DNA of 64,000 nt from Gloeomargarita sp. SRBZ-1_bins_9 (lineage in GTDB: Bacteria; Cyanobacteriota; Cyanobacteriia; Gloeomargaritales; Gloeomargaritaceae): assembly GCA_039794565.1 (NCBI GenBank), contig JAUQVX010000002.1, positions 254,126-318,125 on the forward strand, read 5' to 3'. Of the stretch, positions 2,960-47,048 are shown piece after piece. The notes beneath the pieces are model-generated. The model saw nothing but the letters and a program-made list of their open reading frames with translations, made no database searches and was not told the origin of the DNA. Made by a program: the position numbers and the translations under genes. Every line of letters begins with the position of its first letter. The stretch's first letter is position 1.

Positions 2960-3811
2960 TCAGGCAGCTTGGGGGGCGACGGTGGCCTGATGCACCCATG
3001 TGCGGAGTTGCTGCGCCACCAGTTCCGGGTACTCCAGCATGGCGAAGTGGCCGCAGCGGGGCAATTCCCAGACAATATCTTCGCCAGCCTGGAAGCGGGC
3101 ATGAAAACTGGCCAGGTGCCGCACATAGATCACCGGCATGATGGGGTCCTCTTGACCGGCAATCAAATAAAGGGGCTGGGACAAGCGACTCACGACCTGG
3201 GGGAGCCGGTGAACTTCCGCTTCCGTTGTAGCCGCCAAAAGGGTTTCTCGAGCCGCTTGGGGACAGGCCCGCAACCAATCCTGCAGGCGTTGTTTCCCCC
3301 ACTGCACCGGCAAGGGACGCACCACCCCACTGCGGGCAAAAAACCAGCCACCCCCCGGCAACCACTGCATCCAACGGGAGCGCCAGCGTACCAACTGCAC
3401 CCCCAGGCGGCGAAACCGGTCAAATTCCTGCTGGAGGTAAATACCCCCCCCCGCATTCACCCCAATCACCCCGTTGACCAGGTTTGGCAACTGGGCGGCT
3501 GCCAATAGCGCCACGCTCGCTCCTAAGGAATGCCCCACCAACCAACAGGTTTGGATACCCAAGTGGGCTAACAAATCCCCCAAATCCTGGGCATAGCTAT
3601 CCAGGGAGAAGGTGCAGTGGTTATAGGTCGGTTGGGAAGCCCCAAATCCCCGCAAATCGTAGGTCACACAGGCAAAGTCATCCTTGAGTAAATCCACTAG
3701 GGGCTGCCAGTAGTGCCGACTCAACAACCAACCATGAATGAAAACCAATACCGGGCCCTTGCCCACCCATTCATAAACATGAGGGACACCCCGGATAGTG
3801 ATGGTCGGCAT
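2960..3811 (-). CDS. Alpha/beta hydrolase
   Basis: A 283-residue cytosolic alpha/beta hydrolase with no signal peptide. The oxyanion-hole segment FIHGW is near residue 30, DLRGFGAS near 53, the nucleophile elbow GHSLG near 95, the acid in GQEDPIMP near residue 220, and the catalytic His in CGHFAMLEYPE near 250, so the Ser-Asp-His triad is complete. Such proteins include esterases, C-C hydrolases and lipases, and the sequence does not reveal the substrate. The gene converges with dxs and stands alone between dxs and rpsN. Its start ATG lies in a short AT-rich gap shared with rpsN. Confidence 0.9.
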   Translation of the reverse strand: MPTITIRGVPHVYEWVGKGPVLVFIHGWLLSRHYWQPLVDLLKDDFACVTYDLRGFGASQPTYNHCTFSLDSYAQDLGDLLAHLGIQTCWLVGHSLGASVALLAAAQLPNLVNGVIGVNAGGGIYLQQEFDRFRRLGVQLVRWRSRWMQWLPGGGWFFARSGVVRPLPVQWGKQRLQDWLRACPQAARETLLAATTEAEVHRLPQVVSRLSQPLYLIAGQEDPIMPVIYVRHLASFHARFQAGEDIVWELPRCGHFAMLEYPELVAQQLRTWVHQATVAPQAA

Positions 3812-3898
3812 GGGATGACATCACCGTCTATGCTGCCTGTAATCCATCCTATCAGATGACCTCTACAGGGCCAAAGCTATCAAAGCCATCTATGTAAC

Positions 3899-4201
3899 CT
3901 ACCAGCTAGACTTAACTACGCCTGGCAACAAGCCTTGCAACGCCATCTCCCGTAGGGCATTGCGACAGAGACCAAAATCCCGGAAATAGCCGCGGGGACG
4001 CCCGGTCAACCAGCAGCGATTGCGCAAACGATTGGGGGCGCTGTTGCGGGGCAAGCGTTGGAGTTGCCGGTGGATCGCCAGCTTTTCTTCCCACGTCTCC
4101 GCCATGGCAAATTGTTGCTTGAGTTGTTCCCGTTTGGCGCGGTACTTGTTCACCAGACGTTGCCGGCGCTTCTCCCGCTCCACCATGCTCTTTTTGGCCA
4201 T
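3899..4201 (-). CDS. rpsN: 30S ribosomal protein S14
   Basis: A 100-residue S14 of the long, zinc-free class: it has no CxxC pairs, and carries the conserved C-terminal run [18 protein letters not shown] followed by [12 protein letters not shown]. The ATG at 4201 (MAKKSMVER) gives the standard cyanobacterial length; an upstream in-frame ATG would add 23 unrelated residues. S14 binds the 3' major domain of 16S rRNA in the head of the small subunit. As is usual in cyanobacteria, the gene stands outside the main ribosomal protein operons. It diverges from sipA with about 105 bases between them. Confidence 0.96.
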
Positions 4202-12736: not shown

Positions 12737-14880
<2,144 letters not shown>

Positions 14881-18441: not shown

Positions 18442-19347
18442 TCAATTGGGGGCATGACCTACGCCCGAGGCCACGATCATGGAGCCAATCCCCGTATCGG
18501 TAAAGATTTCCAAAAGCAACGCATGGGGCAATCGGCCGTCGAGGATGTGGGCGGCTTTCACCCCCTGGGCCAGGGACCGCACGCAGCAGTTTACTTTGGG
18601 AATCATGCCCCCCCGGATCACCCCCTGTTCGATGAGCGCCCGCGCCTGCTGAATGTTGAGAAAGTGATAGAGGGTGCTGGGGTCCTGGGGGTCGTGCAGG
18701 ATGCCGGGGGTGTCTGTCAGCAGGATGAGCTTTTCGGCTCCGAGGGCAGCGGCAATTTCTCCGGCAACCGTATCGGCGTTGATGTTGTAGGCTTGGCCGG
18801 TTTCATCGGCGGCTACGCTGGAGACCACCGGAATATAGCCCGACTGGATCAAAGTTTCTAAAAGGTGGGTCTCTACGCTTTTGACTTCCCCCACAAAGCC
18901 GATGTCGTCAGAACCCTCAGGACGGGCCTGAATCAGATGGCCATCCACGCCAGCGATGCCCACCGCCTTGCCCCCCGCCTGGTTGATCAAGCGCACGATT
19001 TCTTTATTGACCCGACCCACCAGCACCATCTCCACCACCTCCATCGTGGCCGCATCGGTCACCCGCAGGCCGTTTTTGAACTGGGGGGCGATACCCAGCT
19101 TGTCCAACCAGGTATTGATCTCCGGCCCGCCGCCATGGACCAGGATGGGGCGAATCCCGACGCAGGACATGAACACCACGTCGCTGATGACCTGTTGTTT
19201 TAAGGATTCATCCTTCATGGCTGCCCCGCCGTATTTGATCACGATGGTGCGCCCGGCGAATTTCTGGATGTAAGGCAAGGCTTCGCTGAGAACCTGCACC
19301 CGGTCGCGGTTGCTGAGCATAGGGCCTTTTGGGGAAAATTTCCCCAT
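18442..19347 (-). CDS. argB: Acetylglutamate kinase
   Basis: A 301-residue NAGK, the second step and usual control point of arginine synthesis (phosphorylation of N-acetylglutamate). Seen are the ATP loop [10 protein letters not shown], the substrate loop [52 protein letters not shown] and [20 protein letters not shown]. The N-terminal helix segment [15 protein letters not shown] is the extension of arginine-sensitive, PII-regulated hexameric enzymes as in Synechococcus. Start options are ATG 19347, given here, or ATG 19320, which has AAAAGG six bases upstream and may be the true start (292 residues). It diverges from the HIT gene. Confidence 0.96.
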
Positions 19348-19356
19348 TTAGCTTAA

Positions 19357-19746
<390 letters not shown>

Positions 19747-19775
19747 CCAAAAACATAAAAACCCTGTAACAGTCC

Positions 19776-19804
19776 TTCACAAAACCCGACCTATGCGTTA
19801 AGAT
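19776..19804 (+). promoter_or_regulatory. Predicted psbA promoter
   Basis: TTCACA (19776-19781) and TAAGAT (19799-19804) are 17 bases apart, about 50 bases upstream of the psbA ATG, which fits a sigma70-type promoter with a leader of roughly 43 bases. Inferred from sequence only. Confidence 0.6.
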
Positions 19805-19854
19805 AGGCCCAGGGAGTTTTCCCTGCTGTTGTCGTTTACTGGACTGATAGAACC

Positions 19855-20925
19855 ATGACTGTAACCCTGGAACGTCGTTCGAGCGTGAGCCTGTGGGAGC
19901 AGTTCTGCCAGTGGGTGACCAGCACCGACAACCGGCTGTATGTGGGCTGGTTTGGCGTGTTGATGATCCCCACCCTGCTGACTGCCACGGCTTGCTTCAT
20001 CATTGCGTTCATTGCGGCTCCCCCGGTGGATATTGACGGGATTCGTGAGCCGGTGTCCGGTTCGCTGCTGTATGGCAACAACATCATCACGGCGGCGGTG
20101 GTGCCTTCCTCCAATGCCATTGGGATGCACCTGTACCCGATTTGGGAAGCGGCTTCCTTGGATGAGTGGCTGTACAATGGCGGCCCTTACCAGTTGATCG
20201 TGCTGCACTTCCTGATCGGTGTGTTCTGCTACATGGGTCGGGAGTGGGAGTTGTCCTACCGGCTGGGGATGCGTCCCTGGATTTGTGTGGCCTACTCGGC
20301 GCCGGTGGCGGCTGCGACTGCTGTGTTTTTGATCTATCCCATTGGCCAGGGGTCCTTCTCGGATGGGATGCCTCTGGGGATTTCCGGTACCTTCAACTTC
20401 ATGCTGGTGTTCCAGGCGGAGCACAACATCCTGATGCACCCCTTCCATATGTTGGGGGTGGCGGGGGTGTTTGGCGGTGCCCTGTTCTGCGCCATGCATG
20501 GTTCCCTGGTGACCTCCTCCTTGATCCGGGAAACCTCTGAGGATGAGTCCCAGAACTACGGCTACAAGTTCGGCCAAGAGGAAGAAACCTACAACATTGT
20601 GGCAGCCCACGGCTACTTCGGCCGGCTGATCTTCCAATACGCCAGCTTTAACAACAGCCGTTCGCTGCACTTCTTCCTGGCGGCCTGGCCGGTGGTGGGC
20701 ATCTGGTTCACCTCCCTGGGCATCAGCACGATGGCCTTCAACCTGAACGGCTTTAACTTCAACCAGTCCATCGTGGACAGCCAAGGTCGGGTGATTAACA
20801 CCTGGGCGGATGTGATCAACCGGGCCAACCTGGGGATCGAAGTGATGCATGAGCGCAACGCCCACAACTTCCCCCTGGATCTGGCCTCCGCTGAACCGGT
20901 GGTGGCCCCGGCGATCAACGGCTAA
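19855..20925 (+). CDS. psbA: Photosystem II reaction centre protein D1, Glu130 type
   Basis: A 356-residue D1 precursor with five transmembrane helices in the thylakoid. Cofactor and water-oxidation residues are in place by direct counting: Tyr161, Asp170, Glu189, His190, His198, His215, Ser264 and His272, with [13 protein letters not shown] giving His332, Glu333, His337, Asp342 and Ala344. A 12-residue tail after Ala344 would be removed by CtpA. Residue 130 is Glu (GREWE), the form associated with high-light D1 copies. Residue 80 is Ala instead of the common Gly (NNIITAAVV), while Phe158 and Thr286 are the usual residues. Met91-His-Leu93 and Cys212 also depart from the commonest sequence. 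The gene has its own promoter and terminator. Other psbA copies may exist outside the window. Confidence 0.98.
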
Positions 20926-41345: not shown

Positions 41346-42215
41346 ATGGTGTGGCAGGGCGCCTGGGCGGCGTTGTTAGATGCGTCGTTGGTGGCTTTTG
41401 TGTCGCAAATCTACGCGATGCTGACGAAGGTTTTGGGGCCGCTGACTTTGAATTGGTTAGAGGGTGTGATGGCCCTGGGGATGTTGCTCCTGACGTTAGG
41501 GCTGCAACGGGAACCCTGGCCGGCGGTAGCCCCGGATACGTGACTGGCTTTGGCCTTAAGCGGCATCCTGGGGATTGGTATCGGTGATACGGCTTTTTTG
41601 CAGGCGCTGCCTACCCTGGGGGTGTCCCAAACCCTGGTGATGGATAAACTGTCGCCGGTGGTAGTGACGCTGCTGGCCTGGTGGACGCTGGGGGAACGGT
41701 TGCAGCCGATGCAACTGCTGGGGATGGCCTTGACGGTGCTCGGGGTCATCCTGGCGGTGACAGAACCCCTGACGATGGGGGGGAAACGGCGGCGTTTCTG
41801 GCAGGGGTTGGCCTGGGGTAGCCTGTATGCTCTGGCCCAGGGGGCAAGTGTGGTGTTGGCGCGGGCGGCTCTGGCAGGGTCGGACATCAGTCCTCGGTGG
41901 AGCGCCACCATCAGCTTGACAGCGGGGTTGCTGGTCCTAAGCTGGGGGTTGCGCCGGAACGCCTGGGACATCCGACGCCTGCCGCTGAAATGGTTACCGG
42001 TGATTGCGATGACCGCTTTTTTGAGTACTTATCTGGGGTTATGGCTCCAACAGTTGGCCTTGAAATGGATGCCGGCGGGGATTGCCCAGACCCTCAGCAG
42101 CACCAGTCCCCTGTTTGGCCTGTTGTGGGCTTGGGCTGGTGGGGAACCGGTCAGCCGCCGGTCTTGGCTGGGGGTGGCTTTGGCCCTGGTGGGCTGTAGC
42201 TTGGTTTTGCCGTAA
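41346..42215 (+). pseudogene. EamA/DMT family transporter interrupted by an in-frame TGA
   Basis: A continuous frame from ATG 41346 to TAA 42215 aligns along its whole length with the next gene, but TGA at 41541-41543 breaks it after 65 codons. The paralogue reads ESWPVLSWETWLGLALSG here, while this copy reads EPWPAVAPDT-stop-LALALSG, so TGG (Trp) has become TGA by a single base change. Downstream the frame is intact and well conserved (ILGIGIGDTAFLQALPTLG, GIAQTLSSTSPLFGLLWAWA), which suggests recent inactivation, translation restart at 41550, readthrough or a sequence error. Ten-helix EamA proteins export metabolites. Roughly half its residues match the paralogue by eye. Confidence 0.85.
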
Positions 42216-42307
42216 TCCCTTGCCTTGCTAACCCAGACCTGGGAGAGGCCTGATTTCCTGTTGTTTACAATCGTTTACAGTTGGGGTGAATTGGGTTCGG
42301 GGGGTTG

Positions 42308-43198
42308 GTGGTGCTCTGGCGGGGTGAGTGGGCAGCGCTGGCGGCGGCATTTTTATGGGCGGCTATGTCCCGAGTGTACGCCGGCTGGGGAAAGGTCTTT
42401 GCGCCCCTGTTGCTGAATTGGCTCAAGGGGGTGATGGCCCTGGGGATGTTTGTCCTCACCCTGGCGCTGCGGGGAGAATCCTGGCCGGTGTTGTCCTGGG
42501 AAACCTGGTTGGGGTTGGCCCTGAGTGGCGTTTTGGGGATTGGCATCGGGGATACGGCCTTTTTCGCCGCCTTGAACTCCCTGGGGGTGCAGCGGACGTT
42601 GCTGATGGATACTTTGTCGCCGGTGCTGGTGACGCTGGTGGCCTGGTTGGTGCTGGGGGAAGGGGTGCGACCGCTCCAGTTGGGGGGGATCGGCTTGACG
42701 GTGACGGGGGTGGCCCTGGTGGTGACGGAGCGGCCCGTAACGGTGCGGGAGCGGTTTCACCTGTGGCCGGGGTTGGCTTGGGGGCTGTTGTTTTCCTTGT
42801 CCCAGGCGCTGGGGGTGGTGCTGTCCCGCTGGGCGTTGGCGGCTTCCCCGGTGACCCCCCTGTGGAGTACGACGGTCCGCCTGGCGGCCGGGGTGGCGGT
42901 GCTGAGCCTGGGGGTACGGCGACCGGTGTGCGCCCGGGGCTGGTGGGCCATTCGCAAACGACCGGCCTGGTTACTCAGCATCGGGGGCACGGCTTTTTTG
43001 AGTACCTATGCGGGCATCTGGCTGCAACAGACGGCTCTGAAGTGGGCGCCGGCGGGGATTGTCCAGACCCTGAGTAGTACCAGTCCCCTATTTGCCCTGT
43101 TGCTGGCCTGGGTCTGGGGGGAACGGGTTAGCTACCGCTCCTGGCTGGGGGTGGCCTTGGCGATTAGCGGTTGCGCGTGGTTGTTTCAGGGGGCCTAG
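42308..43198 (+). CDS. EamA/DMT family transporter
   Basis: A 296-residue inner-membrane protein with about ten transmembrane helices in two EamA repeats. Repeat 1 has LNWLKGVMALGMFVLTLALR, GVLGIGIGDTAFFAALNSLG and LSPVLVTLVAWLVLGEG; repeat 2 has AFLSTYAGIWLQQTALKWAP and QTLSSTSPLFALLLAWVWGE. EamA proteins are drug/metabolite exporters of broad specificity; the substrate is unknown. The start is uncertain: GTG 42308 is given; TTG 42305 and GTG 42311 are alternatives. It is a tandem duplicate of the interrupted gene just upstream. Its TAG interlocks with the stop of the kinase gene. Confidence 0.9.
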   Translation: MVLWRGEWAALAAAFLWAAMSRVYAGWGKVFAPLLLNWLKGVMALGMFVLTLALRGESWPVLSWETWLGLALSGVLGIGIGDTAFFAALNSLGVQRTLLMDTLSPVLVTLVAWLVLGEGVRPLQLGGIGLTVTGVALVVTERPVTVRERFHLWPGLAWGLLFSLSQALGVVLSRWALAASPVTPLWSTTVRLAAGVAVLSLGVRRPVCARGWWAIRKRPAWLLSIGGTAFLSTYAGIWLQQTALKWAPAGIVQTLSSTSPLFALLLAWVWGERVSYRSWLGVALAISGCAWLFQGA

Positions 43199-44730
43199 GA
43201 CAATTGCACCTGCTGGGACAGCCGCGCCAGGATTTGGGGTTTGAGGCGCTCGTACTCCCGCCGCAGCAGTTCCTTGCTCAGGTCAGGGGCCGGGGCCAAG
43301 CGGGACAGTTGCCCTTGGTCGGCCCAGTCTTGCAATAAGGGGCGTTGGGCCGGAGCAATGGCCACCTCCAGGCGATGGCGAAACTTACTCGGATCCTCCA
43401 GGCTGAACAGCAGCAGGTAATAATGCCCGATTTCCGCCAGACAGCGACAGATTTCTTGACCCTCTGGCCGGTGCAAATCCAGGTAGCAGGGCAGCCAGCG
43501 GGGGTCTTGATTCACCTGGTACAGGGCCGTAATCCACAACACCATCGGGTGGGGCGCTGGCGTAAAGATGAACTGGTTATAGCAGCGATTCAACACCCGT
43601 TGGTTGATTTCCGCCTCTGGCAGCATCGCCCAAAGACTGGGAATGTAGGACGACCCCACCGGAATGCGCCTGGGAAAAACGATTTTTTGGATGGGTTTGT
43701 CCTTGGGCCAACTCAGGAGTTCCCAGGCCTCGGCAGACCGCTCTAGACTGGGGCCAGTGGCCACCTGGGGATGGTAGGTGTGGTCGTGGGCTAGGCCACC
43801 GGTAGGTATGACCGGCGTTGGCGGTCGCAGGCTTTGTTCCACCCGCTCCAGGGCCTGGATCACCTCCCCCATATGGGTGGGACGGTCGCGGGGGTCCTTG
43901 GCCAGGCAATGGTAGATCAGGCGTTCCAGTTCCGGGTTCTTGGGCAATTTGGGGTTGATGGCCTGTAGCGACGGCGGCGCTTGCAGGTGGTGGGCGCGGT
44001 ACCAGGCGCCAATGGATTCAACGGGGGCTTGGATCGGCACTTGCCCCGTGAGCATTTCAAACATCATCACCCCAAAGCTGTAAATATCCGAGCGCTGGTC
44101 CAGACTGCGGCCTTCGAGTTGCTCTGGGGAACAGTAGGCCAGGGTGCCGGTAAAGTGGGAGGTTTGATTGCTCTCCGGGTTCTCGTTGATAAATTTGGCA
44201 ATCCCGAAATCCAGGATTTTGGCCAGCATCCCCAGCCCCGGGTCCCGCACCACAAAGATATTGCTGGGTTTGATGTCCCGGTGAATCACACTCCAGACCT
44301 GGCCGTCCACCTCGATCCCCTGGTGCGCCGCCTGCAACCCCCGGGCGATCTGCTGGGCCAAAGGCAGGAACTGCTCCAGGGGCAAGGGCTGCACGTCAAT
44401 CATTTCCCGCAGGCTTTCCCCCTGGAGGTACTCCATCACGTAAAAGGGCAATTCGCTCTCCTCGTCCACCCCGTAGTCCGTCACCCGCACAATGTGAATG
44501 CTTTTGTTGCCGAGCAGGGCGCAGGCCCGGGCTTCGCTGGCAAAGCGTTGTTGACTTTTTTCATCCAGCAACGTGTGGGACAGGAATTTCACCGCCACCG
44601 GCACGCCCCCCAACACCGTATCGGCCGCCTGGTACACCTTGCCCATACTGCCCCGGCCCACGATGGCTTGTAACTTGTAACGTTTTGCCAAGAGACGACC
44701 AATCCAGGGGTCTTGCCCCTTAGTACTCAT
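43195..44730 (-). CDS. Serine/threonine protein kinase
   Basis: A 511-residue soluble Hanks-type kinase. The kinase domain (about 15-285) has the Gly loop VGRGSMGKVYQAAD, the catalytic Lys in VAVKFL, VIHRDIKPSNIF (HRD, about 149), ILDFGIAKF (DFG, about 173), GTLAYCSPEQLEG and SDIYSFGVMMFEMLTG, so it should be active. The remaining 220 residues have no transmembrane helix and form a separate domain of unknown type (SLWAMLPEAEINQRVLNRCY, WITALYQVNQDPRWLPCYLD). It is the last gene of a minus-strand run with an FHA protein, a natural phosphothreonine reader and a plausible substrate or partner. Confidence 0.93.
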   Translation of the reverse strand: MSTKGQDPWIGRLLAKRYKLQAIVGRGSMGKVYQAADTVLGGVPVAVKFLSHTLLDEKSQQRFASEARACALLGNKSIHIVRVTDYGVDEESELPFYVMEYLQGESLREMIDVQPLPLEQFLPLAQQIARGLQAAHQGIEVDGQVWSVIHRDIKPSNIFVVRDPGLGMLAKILDFGIAKFINENPESNQTSHFTGTLAYCSPEQLEGRSLDQRSDIYSFGVMMFEMLTGQVPIQAPVESIGAWYRAHHLQAPPSLQAINPKLPKNPELERLIYHCLAKDPRDRPTHMGEVIQALERVEQSLRPPTPVIPTGGLAHDHTYHPQVATGPSLERSAEAWELLSWPKDKPIQKIVFPRRIPVGSSYIPSLWAMLPEAEINQRVLNRCYNQFIFTPAPHPMVLWITALYQVNQDPRWLPCYLDLHRPEGQEICRCLAEIGHYYLLLFSLEDPSKFRHRLEVAIAPAQRPLLQDWADQGQLSRLAPAPDLSKELLRREYERLKPQILARLSQQVQLS

Positions 44731-44787
44731 CCCCCCATCCCCTCCACCGATGCCCCATGCTTTCCTCCCCCGGCTATCATTCCTATC

Positions 44788-45798
44788 CTACACAAACCCC
44801 TGTTCCGGCATCGAGGTTTGCTGACAGGTGGGCGTCTCCGCCAAACCGTAATTGTAGAGAAACGTGCGCAAGCGGTCATAGCGGCTCCCCCACACCTGAA
44901 CCGGCGGCGCCTGCGGTTGGAGCTGTACCGGAACCGGCTCGAGCCAATCTGCTAAATCCACCCGCTGTAGATGTTGATAGGTCATTTCCCCTACCAGCAC
45001 GTCGTAGCCCGCCGTTTTGGTCGCCGCTTCCAGGGCAAAGGCAGCGCTGACCGTCTGGCCGAGGGCCACATACTCCGTTTGCTGGGGCGATCCACCGGGC
45101 GCTACCAGAGCATAACCCGTATTGACCCCCGTCCCCAATTGCAGGGGAAACGGTAGCAAGTACTGCAAATGCAAGTTACTGGTCCCGCGGTAGAGACTCC
45201 AGAAGGCCCGCAGGATGCGCAACCAATCGGCAGCTGCTGGTTCCTTGGGGGAGTGGAACCAAGCTACCATCACCCCCCTTTCCGTGTACTGGCTGACTTG
45301 GGCGCCATAGCGCTGGGTGATTTCCCCCACCTGCCGGAACCAGGTCCCCATCACCTGGGCCACCTGTTGGTCGGGTGCCTGTTTCTCCAGCATAGCCCCG
45401 TTCCGCAGATGCAGGACCACCGCCGTCATCAAACAGCGGGTTTTGATAGCCGACGTGGTGGGGGCATCACCGCCAGCCAGTCCGCCAGAGGCCAAGAGCA
45501 ACTGCATCCGCACCTGGCCAAAGACCATTTCGTCCCGCTCCCGTAGCCGCACCGGCAGAGTCACCCGCCGCCCGTTGACAAACGTACCATTGCGACTGCC
45601 CAGGTCCACGACATAGAACGCCTCGTTGTTCCGCCGTTGGATCAGGGCATGCAGGCGGGATACCCAAGGACTGTCGAGGATAATGGCCGCCTGATTGCTC
45701 CGCCCCACCAGCCAGGTGCCGTTGCCAATCAGGACATAGCGTTCTTCCGGTTGCCCCGACGACCCCAACCGCACCAGGTAAGCCGTTGCTGGTAACAC
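44788..45798 (-). CDS. FHA domain protein with degenerate class III nucleotide cyclase domain
   Basis: A 336-residue protein. The FHA domain (about 15-105) has TWLVGRSNQAAIIL, SRLHALIQRR and VVDLGSRNGTFVNGRRV, the phosphothreonine-binding residues Arg, Ser and Asn. The C-terminal part (about 115-310) follows the class III adenylate/guanylate cyclase layout, but the metal Asp positions are lost: VVLHLRNG where a DIAGFT-like motif is expected and YTERGVMVAWF where GDG is expected. The transition-state Asn/Arg region reads ALGQTVSAAFALEAATK. It is thus probably a nucleotide-binding or scaffold module and not an active cyclase. It sits between the 3D-domain gene and the kinase gene. Confidence 0.85.
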   Translation of the reverse strand: MLPATAYLVRLGSSGQPEERYVLIGNGTWLVGRSNQAAIILDSPWVSRLHALIQRRNNEAFYVVDLGSRNGTFVNGRRVTLPVRLRERDEMVFGQVRMQLLLASGGLAGGDAPTTSAIKTRCLMTAVVLHLRNGAMLEKQAPDQQVAQVMGTWFRQVGEITQRYGAQVSQYTERGVMVAWFHSPKEPAAADWLRILRAFWSLYRGTSNLHLQYLLPFPLQLGTGVNTGYALVAPGGSPQQTEYVALGQTVSAAFALEAATKTAGYDVLVGEMTYQHLQRVDLADWLEPVPVQLQPQAPPVQVWGSRYDRLRTFLYNYGLAETPTCQQTSMPEQGFV

Positions 45799-45827
45799 CT
45801 AACCCCCAGGGAAACGCTAGCTCTATC

Positions 45828-46940
45828 TTAGTCCCGGTGATACTTGACCAACACATAGGCCGTGGCGTACTCCGGCAGGCGGCGGTTGTAGGCCCAAAAT
45901 TCCTGGCGACTGGCAAAAATCCCGGCCAAATAGTCCAACTGGGCCAAATTGGCAGAAAACGCTCCCCCCGTGTCGGCGATCACCCCCAGCAACCACTGGC
46001 CCGGCCCCCGTTCCAACAGCACCACCCGGCCCAGCCCCACATTCCACACATCCCCGGCCAAGGTTACCCCCGGTTGAATTTCGATCTTGTTCTCGATGGT
46101 TTGGCCGTAGCCGCGCATGGCCGTCACCTCCTGGAAATACCAATAGCGCTGCTGCTTCTCAGGGGAAACACCGGGGACAAAAGGAAGGCCATTGTGGCGG
46201 TCCACGTTGAAATAGGCCGTTGTGCCGTCGGGAAACTCCACCAGGATGGTTCCCTGGAGCAAGGCTTCCTCCAGCCCCGCCCGCGTCAGATACACCAGGG
46301 GCGTCACCTTGTGGGCATCGGGACGACCCGGGGCCAAAGCACCCGCCAGGACCTCCTGTTTGGTGTACTGCTGATGGAAGTCATCCGTGCGCCACTCCGG
46401 GCGAATCTGGTACAGGGCGTAGCGATAATCCCCCTCCGGTTGCCGGCGACCCCGATGGCGAAACACCCCATACTTGGTCAACCGCAATTGCGACCCCAAC
46501 CCCTCCGCTGGACGATAGGCCCGCCAATGCCAGGCTCGGAAATGCCGACGCAAAAAATCGGGATTTTGTAAACGCAGGGGTCGCGCCTGGGTGAGGTCCT
46601 CCAGCAGCACATCAATTAAAAAATTCAGGGTTTGCGTCACCTCCTCGACTTGCACCCCCAAGGCCCCCAACAGACCCGGCCGTTGGACAACTGTATCCTG
46701 CGCCCCGTATTTCCGGAAATAGCGGCGGGTGTTGATCAACACGATCAGCAGGGCATGGGGGTCAAAACTCACCGTTCCCTTCGGCAGGGGTCGCTCCTGA
46801 AAGACCTGGTGCGGTTGTACGGGATAACGGGCCTGCCCAAACTCATCCACCACCATATACAGACCGGTCGCCGCCCCCGGTTGATGCACCATCAACGTCA
46901 GCGCCAGCGCCGTCCATCCTCCCCACCCACAACGCCCCAT
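45828..46940 (-). CDS. Exported 3D-domain protein
   Basis: A 370-residue protein with a signal peptide (WGGWTALALTLMVHQPGAAT). A large N-terminal region (30-270) of unknown type contains FDPHALLIVLINTRRYFRK. The C-terminal 90 residues carry the 3D pattern: the three Asp in LAGDVWNVGLGRVV, VIADTGGAFSA and LAQLDYLAGIF, as in MltA-like lytic transglycosylases. A role in cell-wall turnover is therefore plausible, but it lacks an obvious MltA catalytic domain. It is the first gene of the run that continues with the FHA protein and the kinase, 29 bases apart, suggesting a cell-wall signalling group. Confidence 0.66.
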   Translation of the reverse strand: MGRCGWGGWTALALTLMVHQPGAATGLYMVVDEFGQARYPVQPHQVFQERPLPKGTVSFDPHALLIVLINTRRYFRKYGAQDTVVQRPGLLGALGVQVEEVTQTLNFLIDVLLEDLTQARPLRLQNPDFLRRHFRAWHWRAYRPAEGLGSQLRLTKYGVFRHRGRRQPEGDYRYALYQIRPEWRTDDFHQQYTKQEVLAGALAPGRPDAHKVTPLVYLTRAGLEEALLQGTILVEFPDGTTAYFNVDRHNGLPFVPGVSPEKQQRYWYFQEVTAMRGYGQTIENKIEIQPGVTLAGDVWNVGLGRVVLLERGPGQWLLGVIADTGGAFSANLAQLDYLAGIFASRQEFWAYNRRLPEYATAYVLVKYHRD

Positions 46941-47048
46941 GCGTTTGACCGACCCCCTGCCCTAGAATCGAAATGGATTTTATTGTACGCCATCCCCACG
47001 AATCATAGACATTTGGGGTTGCGCCTGCTAAACTGCCAGCACTGGGCT

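Follow-up and report, generated by a model that had tools for sequence, protein, structure and literature searches.

Do the genes tdd, fha and kin, which lie side by side in the cyanobacterium Gloeomargarita sp. SRBZ-1_bins_9, form one functional unit, and what would such a unit do? They sit on the minus strand of a 64,000-nucleotide stretch of contig JAUQVX010000002.1 (hereafter the window; the source genome comprises 2.22 Mb in 21 contigs). A sequence-only reading had described them as three adjacent genes on one strand and proposed an envelope signalling module. The three open reading frames (ORFs) are indeed adjacent, with intergenic gaps of 29 and 57 bp, and constitute a real, lineage-specific cluster that is probably an operon. 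The interpretation that we favour, although only tentatively, is a Gloeomargarita-lineage operon in which an MltA-type enzyme, a soluble kinase and an FHA-pseudocyclase link phosphorylation to wall turnover. In window coordinates, the features are:

45828..46940, minus strand: tdd, ORF of 370 amino acids (aa); predicted exported MltA-like (GH102-fold) lytic transglycosylase
45933..45935, minus strand: codon of tdd D336, aligned to the catalytic D308 of E. coli MltA
44788..45798, minus strand: fha, ORF of 336 aa with a GTG start; FHA domain and pseudocyclase (class III cyclase-like domain lacking the catalytic residues)
45517..45714, minus strand: FHA domain (fha residues 29-94), from Pfam PF00498 and residue alignment
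44944..45447, minus strand: pseudocyclase domain (fha residues 118-285), from the CyaB 3r5g match, residue states and the ratio of nonsynonymous to synonymous substitution rates (dN/dS)
43195..44730, minus strand: kin, ORF of 511 aa; predicted soluble Hanks-type Ser/Thr kinase
43873..44679, minus strand: kinase catalytic domain (kin residues 18-286), from Pfam PF00069
43195..43803, minus strand: kin C-terminal domain (202 aa used as query), conserved in cyanobacteria
46941..47048, no strand: 108-bp divergent intergenic region 5' of tdd, likely operon promoter region

Adjacency was counted over a set of 96 genomes, with denominators referring to genomes that hold both genes; G000 denotes the window's genome, G001-G006 its congeners in Gloeomargarita, a cyanobacterial genus that branches early, and G007 a sister genus of the same family. 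The order tdd-fha-kin is found in all seven genomes of the genus. A neighbourhood comparison had been set beforehand as the test of the proposed module, and with the triad together in 6/6 congeners the objection that its members are neighbours in no relative fails. The gaps are short in other congeners too, where the ORF starts, as called, are not over-extended. FHA and kinase genes adjoin each other in 8/8 family genomes and 0/50 other cyanobacterial genomes, and the module therefore belongs to one lineage; tdd adjoins the FHA gene in 7/8 family genomes and 0/5 others, and the kinase gene in 7/8 and 1/5, respectively. Of the 54 window ORFs with a length of 120 aa or more, only the triad and a neighbouring small gene are positionally conserved within 60 kb in G002 and G004, apart from one or two scattered single matches; the triad block, including a divergent neighbour, is selectively retained. 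An ORF of 330 aa occurs three times around the triad of Gloeomargaritales VI4D9 (L111), each time beginning with the same sequence (2982-3974, 13881-14873 and 19130-20122); these copies are probably an insertion element and may account for rearranged flanks.

What the first gene encodes is best read from its predicted structure. The AlphaFold2 model of tdd, built from 25 sequences (predicted local distance difference test (pLDDT) 88.4, predicted template modelling score 0.86), has the two-domain MltA fold with its 3D domain. Foldseek placed MltA-type lytic transglycosylase structures at ranks 1-14 and VIA-align at ranks 1-11, with the first non-MltA row at Z 6.3; the VIA match to 2pnw reached Z 21.1 with a root-mean-square deviation of 3.7 over 284 aligned residues at 18% identity. 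The catalytic Asp could be located because the E. coli MltA D308A entries 2pjj, 2pic and 2pi8 read HFAIY where the wild type reads HFDIY. This D308 aligns with D336 of tdd, in a segment reading QLDYL, and the remaining two 3D-domain Asp of the E. coli enzyme align with D297 and D323; all three residues are invariant across 25 tdd family members, and the TxY and QG motifs of MltA are present in the structure alignment. At the sequence level, tdd falls below the cut-off of the Pfam MltA family PF03562 (E 0.14, 12.6 versus 24.3 bits) and is therefore named MltA-like rather than a PF03562 member; 16 of the 25 family members match PF03562 at E<=1 (best 7e-4). Since the tdd sequence profile gave no meaningful match in the PDB (best E 0.47, to PU.1), the relation to MltA comes mainly from the predicted fold. 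The 3D-domain label of the sequence-only reading thus holds for the fold and the three Asp but not at the Pfam threshold. A likely signal peptide (residues 1-23) was read by eye at the N-terminus, where no lipobox Cys expected of an outer-membrane lipoprotein was found by eye; some Thermosynechococcus relatives carry an LxGC-type motif on the same kind of inspection. On its modelled fold, tdd is a putative exported lytic transglycosylase of a divergent MltA type.

Canonical MltA (PF03562) occurs in 78/96 relatives including the window's genome, and tdd represents an additional family beside it. This family was detected in 14/96 relatives (Gloeomargaritaceae, the Thermosynechococcus-containing family f26 and one f32 genome) and in 58/388 genomes drawn evenly from the class; the named loci, the best 80 of 153 confirmed, belong to Gloeomargarita, Thermosynechococcus, many Nostocales and Chamaesiphon. 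A role of tdd as a marker of intracellular carbonate, suggested by the distribution over the 96 genomes, was dropped in view of the wider class sample and the many Nostoc, Fischerella and Anabaena loci. The canonical MltA of G000 (C1:223636-223944) matches only PF03562 positions 58-162, those of G004-G006 match positions 57-162 and G001 yields no match; tdd may compensate for a partial or absent canonical MltA in these genomes. The homologue in Nostoc sp. S4 (L118:10001-11053) has an in-frame stop within the matched stretch, which is either its natural end or a break, and the tdd locus of Mastigocoleus testarum BC008 appears on two contigs (L123 and L124) with an identical neighbour at an identical distance, reflecting a duplication or an assembly artefact.

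The second gene combines an intact binding domain with a degraded enzyme. The FHA domain of fha matches PF00498 at E 3.2e-21 (76 versus a cut-off of 20.7 bits), and its phosphothreonine-site residues G32, R33, S47, H50 and N70 are in place, as is the same site in 41/41 homologues. The cyclase-like domain matches CyaB 3r5g (E 4e-8, residues 125-283) in an alignment where His replaces the first metal Asp and ER replaces GD. The catalytic roles of the class III cyclase residues are established, and in fha the two metal Asp are replaced by H130 and R174, Lys by Q170, Asn by S251 and the transition-state Arg by A255. The domain is therefore homologous to class III adenylate cyclases and devoid of their active-site Asp/Asp/Lys/Asn/Arg set, which bears out the earlier claim that metal-binding and transition-state residues have been lost.

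A survey of the 41 homologues, eight of them kinase-linked and 33 not (seven psbU-linked-type Gloeomargaritaceae copies and 26 others), places this loss in context. Whereas the catalytic set (D, K, D, D/E, N, R) is kept in 33/33 non-linked homologues, the transition-state Arg is gone from 8/8 kinase-linked copies, being replaced by Q (G002-G006), H (G001), D (G007) or A (window). Both metal Asp, Lys and Asn persist in five of the seven kinase-linked copies of the genus. Besides the Arg, the G006 copy has exchanged its first Asp for N and its Asn for S. Lys and Asn are missing from the G007 copy, and the window's copy lacks these two together with both metal Asp. Judged from these residue states, the kinase-linked copies range by degrees from a cyclase that is nearly complete to one that is wholly dead, the mark of stepwise loss. 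In a tree whose root is arbitrary and in which kin_G007 sits on a long branch, they group together (support 97/94, present in 99% of bootstrap trees), and so, separately, do the psbU-linked copies of the family. A widespread FHA-adenylate cyclase is a full-length homologue of fha with the same order of FHA and class III domains and about 40% identity, and fha is likely a duplicate of this enzyme, its likely parent. Both copies coexist in 7/8 family genomes; G005, which is 83% complete, shows one.

The psbU and nadB names were read from sequence, and 'psbU-linked' serves as a label for the parent copy, a PsbU-like neighbour being present in part of the loci. The neighbourhood of the intact FHA-cyclase is conserved in distant cyanobacteria, with downstream proteins of 130-160 aa (PsbU-like) and 550-590 aa (NadB-like) at loci L084, L093, L098, L100, L088 and L092.

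Selection has nevertheless acted on the degraded copy. Between G000 and G002, the kinase-linked copy has a dN/dS of 0.25 and its psbU-linked counterpart one of 0.065; the kinase comes to 0.09 and tdd to 0.20. These values are rough because dS reaches 1.8; identity over the same pair is 51% for the kinase-linked and 83% for the parent copy. By dN/dS, the kinase-linked copies evolve 2-4 times faster than the parent type. The pseudocyclase domain alone gives dN/dS of 0.09-0.26 over six pairs, and the copy is in frame in 8/8 genomes; the low ratios therefore argue for a retained pseudoenzyme rather than a dying gene. The structural model of the FHA-pseudocyclase (four sequences, pLDDT 49) was too poor to use. 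PADLOC matches of the kinase and the FHA protein were put down to generic kinase and cyclase domains, and no search for defence partners was made.

The third gene encodes a kinase (PF00069, E 1.7e-42) with a full complement of catalytic motifs, as first described: the G-loop GRGSMGKV, VAVK, HRDIKPSN and DFG. It is 85-91% identical within the genus. The protein contains no strongly hydrophobic segment (best 19-residue hydropathy 1.13) and is probably cytosolic. Against the equivalog model of PknB/Stk1 PASTA kinases it scored 247 bits, below the cut-off of 450, and matched over the kinase domain only. Its C-terminal 202 residues found a match in 67/96 relatives, and the window's copy of this domain belongs to no Pfam family and has no PDB match at E<=1. 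Transporter genes of the DMT type (named by eye), two in tandem and similar to each other, lie convergent toward kin (41550-43198), and such a pair also adjoins the triad in G001, G003, G005 and G006.

Outside the family, the kinase keeps different company. In G088 (Anabaena sp. 4-3) and G068, its neighbours are an AnmK homologue and a protein of about 150 aa of no known family. The latter lies between AnmK and the kinase (L085:9485-9937 in G088, L095:7980-8423 in G068; 59% mutual identity). The AnmK label was first read from sequence in these two genomes and then tested with PF03702. AnmK and kinase genes occur within 5 kb of each other in 29 of the 59 non-family genomes with both genes, across 13 families, which provides an independent tie of the kinase to peptidoglycan turnover. 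AnmK phosphorylates anhydro-N-acetylmuramic acid, which derives from lytic transglycosylase products, so that the kinase adjoins one end of this pathway widely and the other end in Gloeomargarita. In Anabaena sp. 4-3 (L180), tdd, AnmK and the kinase are clustered, a single case among the best 80 of 153 loci.

In the reading that we tentatively favour, one transcript would span tdd, fha and kin. A weak sigma-70-like site lies at 47031-47002 on the minus strand within the 108-bp region upstream of tdd, where three promoter-like sites compare with 1.2 expected, which is not decisive; the promoter and terminator scan gave a signal near chance level. The kinase in the cytosol would respond to the state of peptidoglycan turnover via its orphan C-terminal domain and would autophosphorylate or phosphorylate a partner. 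The FHA protein may then dock, as an adaptor, on a phosphothreonine of the kinase or of that partner, its cyclase domain acting as a dimerising or regulatory scaffold that makes no cyclic AMP (cAMP). The output would tune wall turnover, the lytic enzyme being co-expressed. Because the kinase is soluble and the MltA-like enzyme exported, any coupling would have to be indirect, and the kinase is unlikely to phosphorylate the mature enzyme itself.

Several observations weigh against this reading. The triad as such is found only within the genus; in G007, from the sister genus, the FHA and kinase genes are still paired, and tdd resides on another contig, where it is followed downstream by a convergent gene. 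A divergent HAD gene is kept beside the triad in L041-L045, as is a small gene of no known family, and the synteny is therefore not exclusive to the triad. Among the best 80 of 153 named tdd loci, tdd lies near a close relative of kin in four, three of them in Gloeomargarita and the fourth in Anabaena sp. 4-3; in seven further loci a kinase of 28-41% identity occurs within 10 kb of tdd, and these were not counted as orthologues. The AnmK-kinase adjacency is seen in 0/8 family genomes and is missing from 30 of the 59 others. A kinase lacking a membrane segment would not act directly on the exported enzyme, the metal Asp, as judged from the congeners that keep both, were lost recently and only in the window's lineage, and dS for the window's pairs (1.0-1.8) is close to saturation. 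Of the envelope signalling module first proposed, the wall-related part is supported by the MltA fold, the conserved neighbourhood and the AnmK link, but its restriction to one genus, the co-retention of other genes and the soluble nature of the kinase fit it poorly.

These points also feed the alternatives. FHA protein and kinase might be a true signalling pair that controls something else, such as a carbon or motility signal passed down from the parent cyclase, with the MltA-like gene a chance operon neighbour. The pair, present throughout the family, is older than its genus-only link to tdd, and outside Gloeomargarita the best 80 of 153 loci connect tdd with this kinase only in Anabaena sp. 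4-3; the parent-type enzyme moreover recalls Synechocystis Cya1, described in the accessible part of PMC10117731 as a CO2/bicarbonate-responsive cyclase. We nonetheless regard this as unlikely, if worth serious attention, given that the kinase has its own peptidoglycan link through AnmK and that tdd has stayed in place in 7/7 genus genomes, in some of which the flanks are rearranged. It is more improbable that there is no functional module at all, and that three proteins of unrelated roles share a conserved synteny block in which the FHA-cyclase copy slowly decays. The HAD gene and small ORF within the block and the faster evolution of the copy relative to its parent would fit such a view, but the pseudocyclase domain is under purifying selection and in frame throughout with its FHA site intact, and a loss of Arg from every kinase-linked copy, set against its retention in all others, is better explained by a new role than by random decay.

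Class III cyclases act as dimers that share residues across their interface, and the pseudocyclase could accordingly still be a cyclase subunit, forming a heterodimer with the intact psbU-linked FHA-cyclase that modulates cAMP with the kinase upstream. An intact copy is available in 7/8 family genomes (the exception being G005, at 83% completeness), and the five genus copies with both metal Asp, Lys and Asn could complement the Arg of a partner. In the window's copy, however, neither half-site is complete, with D1, D2, K, N and R all lost, so that a heterodimer site would at best be partly supplied, and we consider this alternative very doubtful. A bolder form of the favoured reading, improbable in its entirety, holds that cyanobacterial kinases of this family sense peptidoglycan recycling in the cytosol, their C-terminal domain reading a metabolite of the AnmK pathway (an anhydro-sugar or muropeptide). 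A duplicate of an FHA-adenylate cyclase would have been captured in Gloeomargaritaceae as the dedicated phospho-reader of the kinase and become a pseudoenzyme stepwise, the lytic transglycosylase joining the operon later. If true, the locus would offer a natural series of a second-messenger enzyme turning into a phospho-signalling adaptor.

To our knowledge, most cyanobacterial Ser/Thr kinases have no known substrates or inputs. The recurrent link of this kinase to anmK and, in one lineage, to an MltA-like enzyme points to wall recycling as an input and to the FHA-pseudocyclase as a reader, both of them testable, and the eight kinase-linked copies with intact parents in the same cells make a clean natural system for the change from enzyme to scaffold.

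Our literature searches, with most subscription papers outside their scope, returned nothing on a tdd-fha-kin operon, and the accessible parts of two surveys of cyanobacterial kinases (PMC2176072, PMC11863333) describe no such arrangement. As far as those parts go, kin resembles the cyanobacterial Spk/Pkn Hanks kinases in being soluble with intact motifs and differs by its conserved orphan C-terminal domain. E. coli MltA (GH102) shares with tdd the two-domain fold and the three aligned 3D-domain Asp at an identity of 15-18%. The parent FHA-adenylate cyclase, which retains all catalytic residues and is located elsewhere, in contrast to the kinase-linked copies without Arg, we take to be of the Cya1/slr1991 type; Cya1 presumably has an FHA domain as well. 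Cya1 is the main soluble cyclase of Synechocystis and is enhanced by CO2 and/or bicarbonate, according to the portion of the source available (PMC10117731). The best functional parallel appears to be the mycobacterial operon fhaA/fhaB-pstP-rodA-pbpA-pknA-pknB, in which a Ser/Thr kinase, FHA proteins and peptidoglycan enzymes are likewise brought together; in its PknB-MviN-FhaA system, FhaA binds the phosphorylated pseudokinase domain of the wall protein MviN, so that by analogy kinase, dead enzyme and FHA reader meet there too (PMC11898655, available part). The two sets are not homologous: compared with what that text describes, the Gloeomargarita kinase has neither PASTA domains nor a membrane segment, the part of the dead domain falls to a cyclase joined to the FHA domain itself, a lytic transglycosylase takes the place of the wall enzyme and the operon has no phosphatase. 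The cluster is a variant of a known theme of kinase, FHA protein and wall enzyme, to which the stepwise series of pseudoenzymes and the tie between kinase and AnmK add what the sequence-only reading had not contained.

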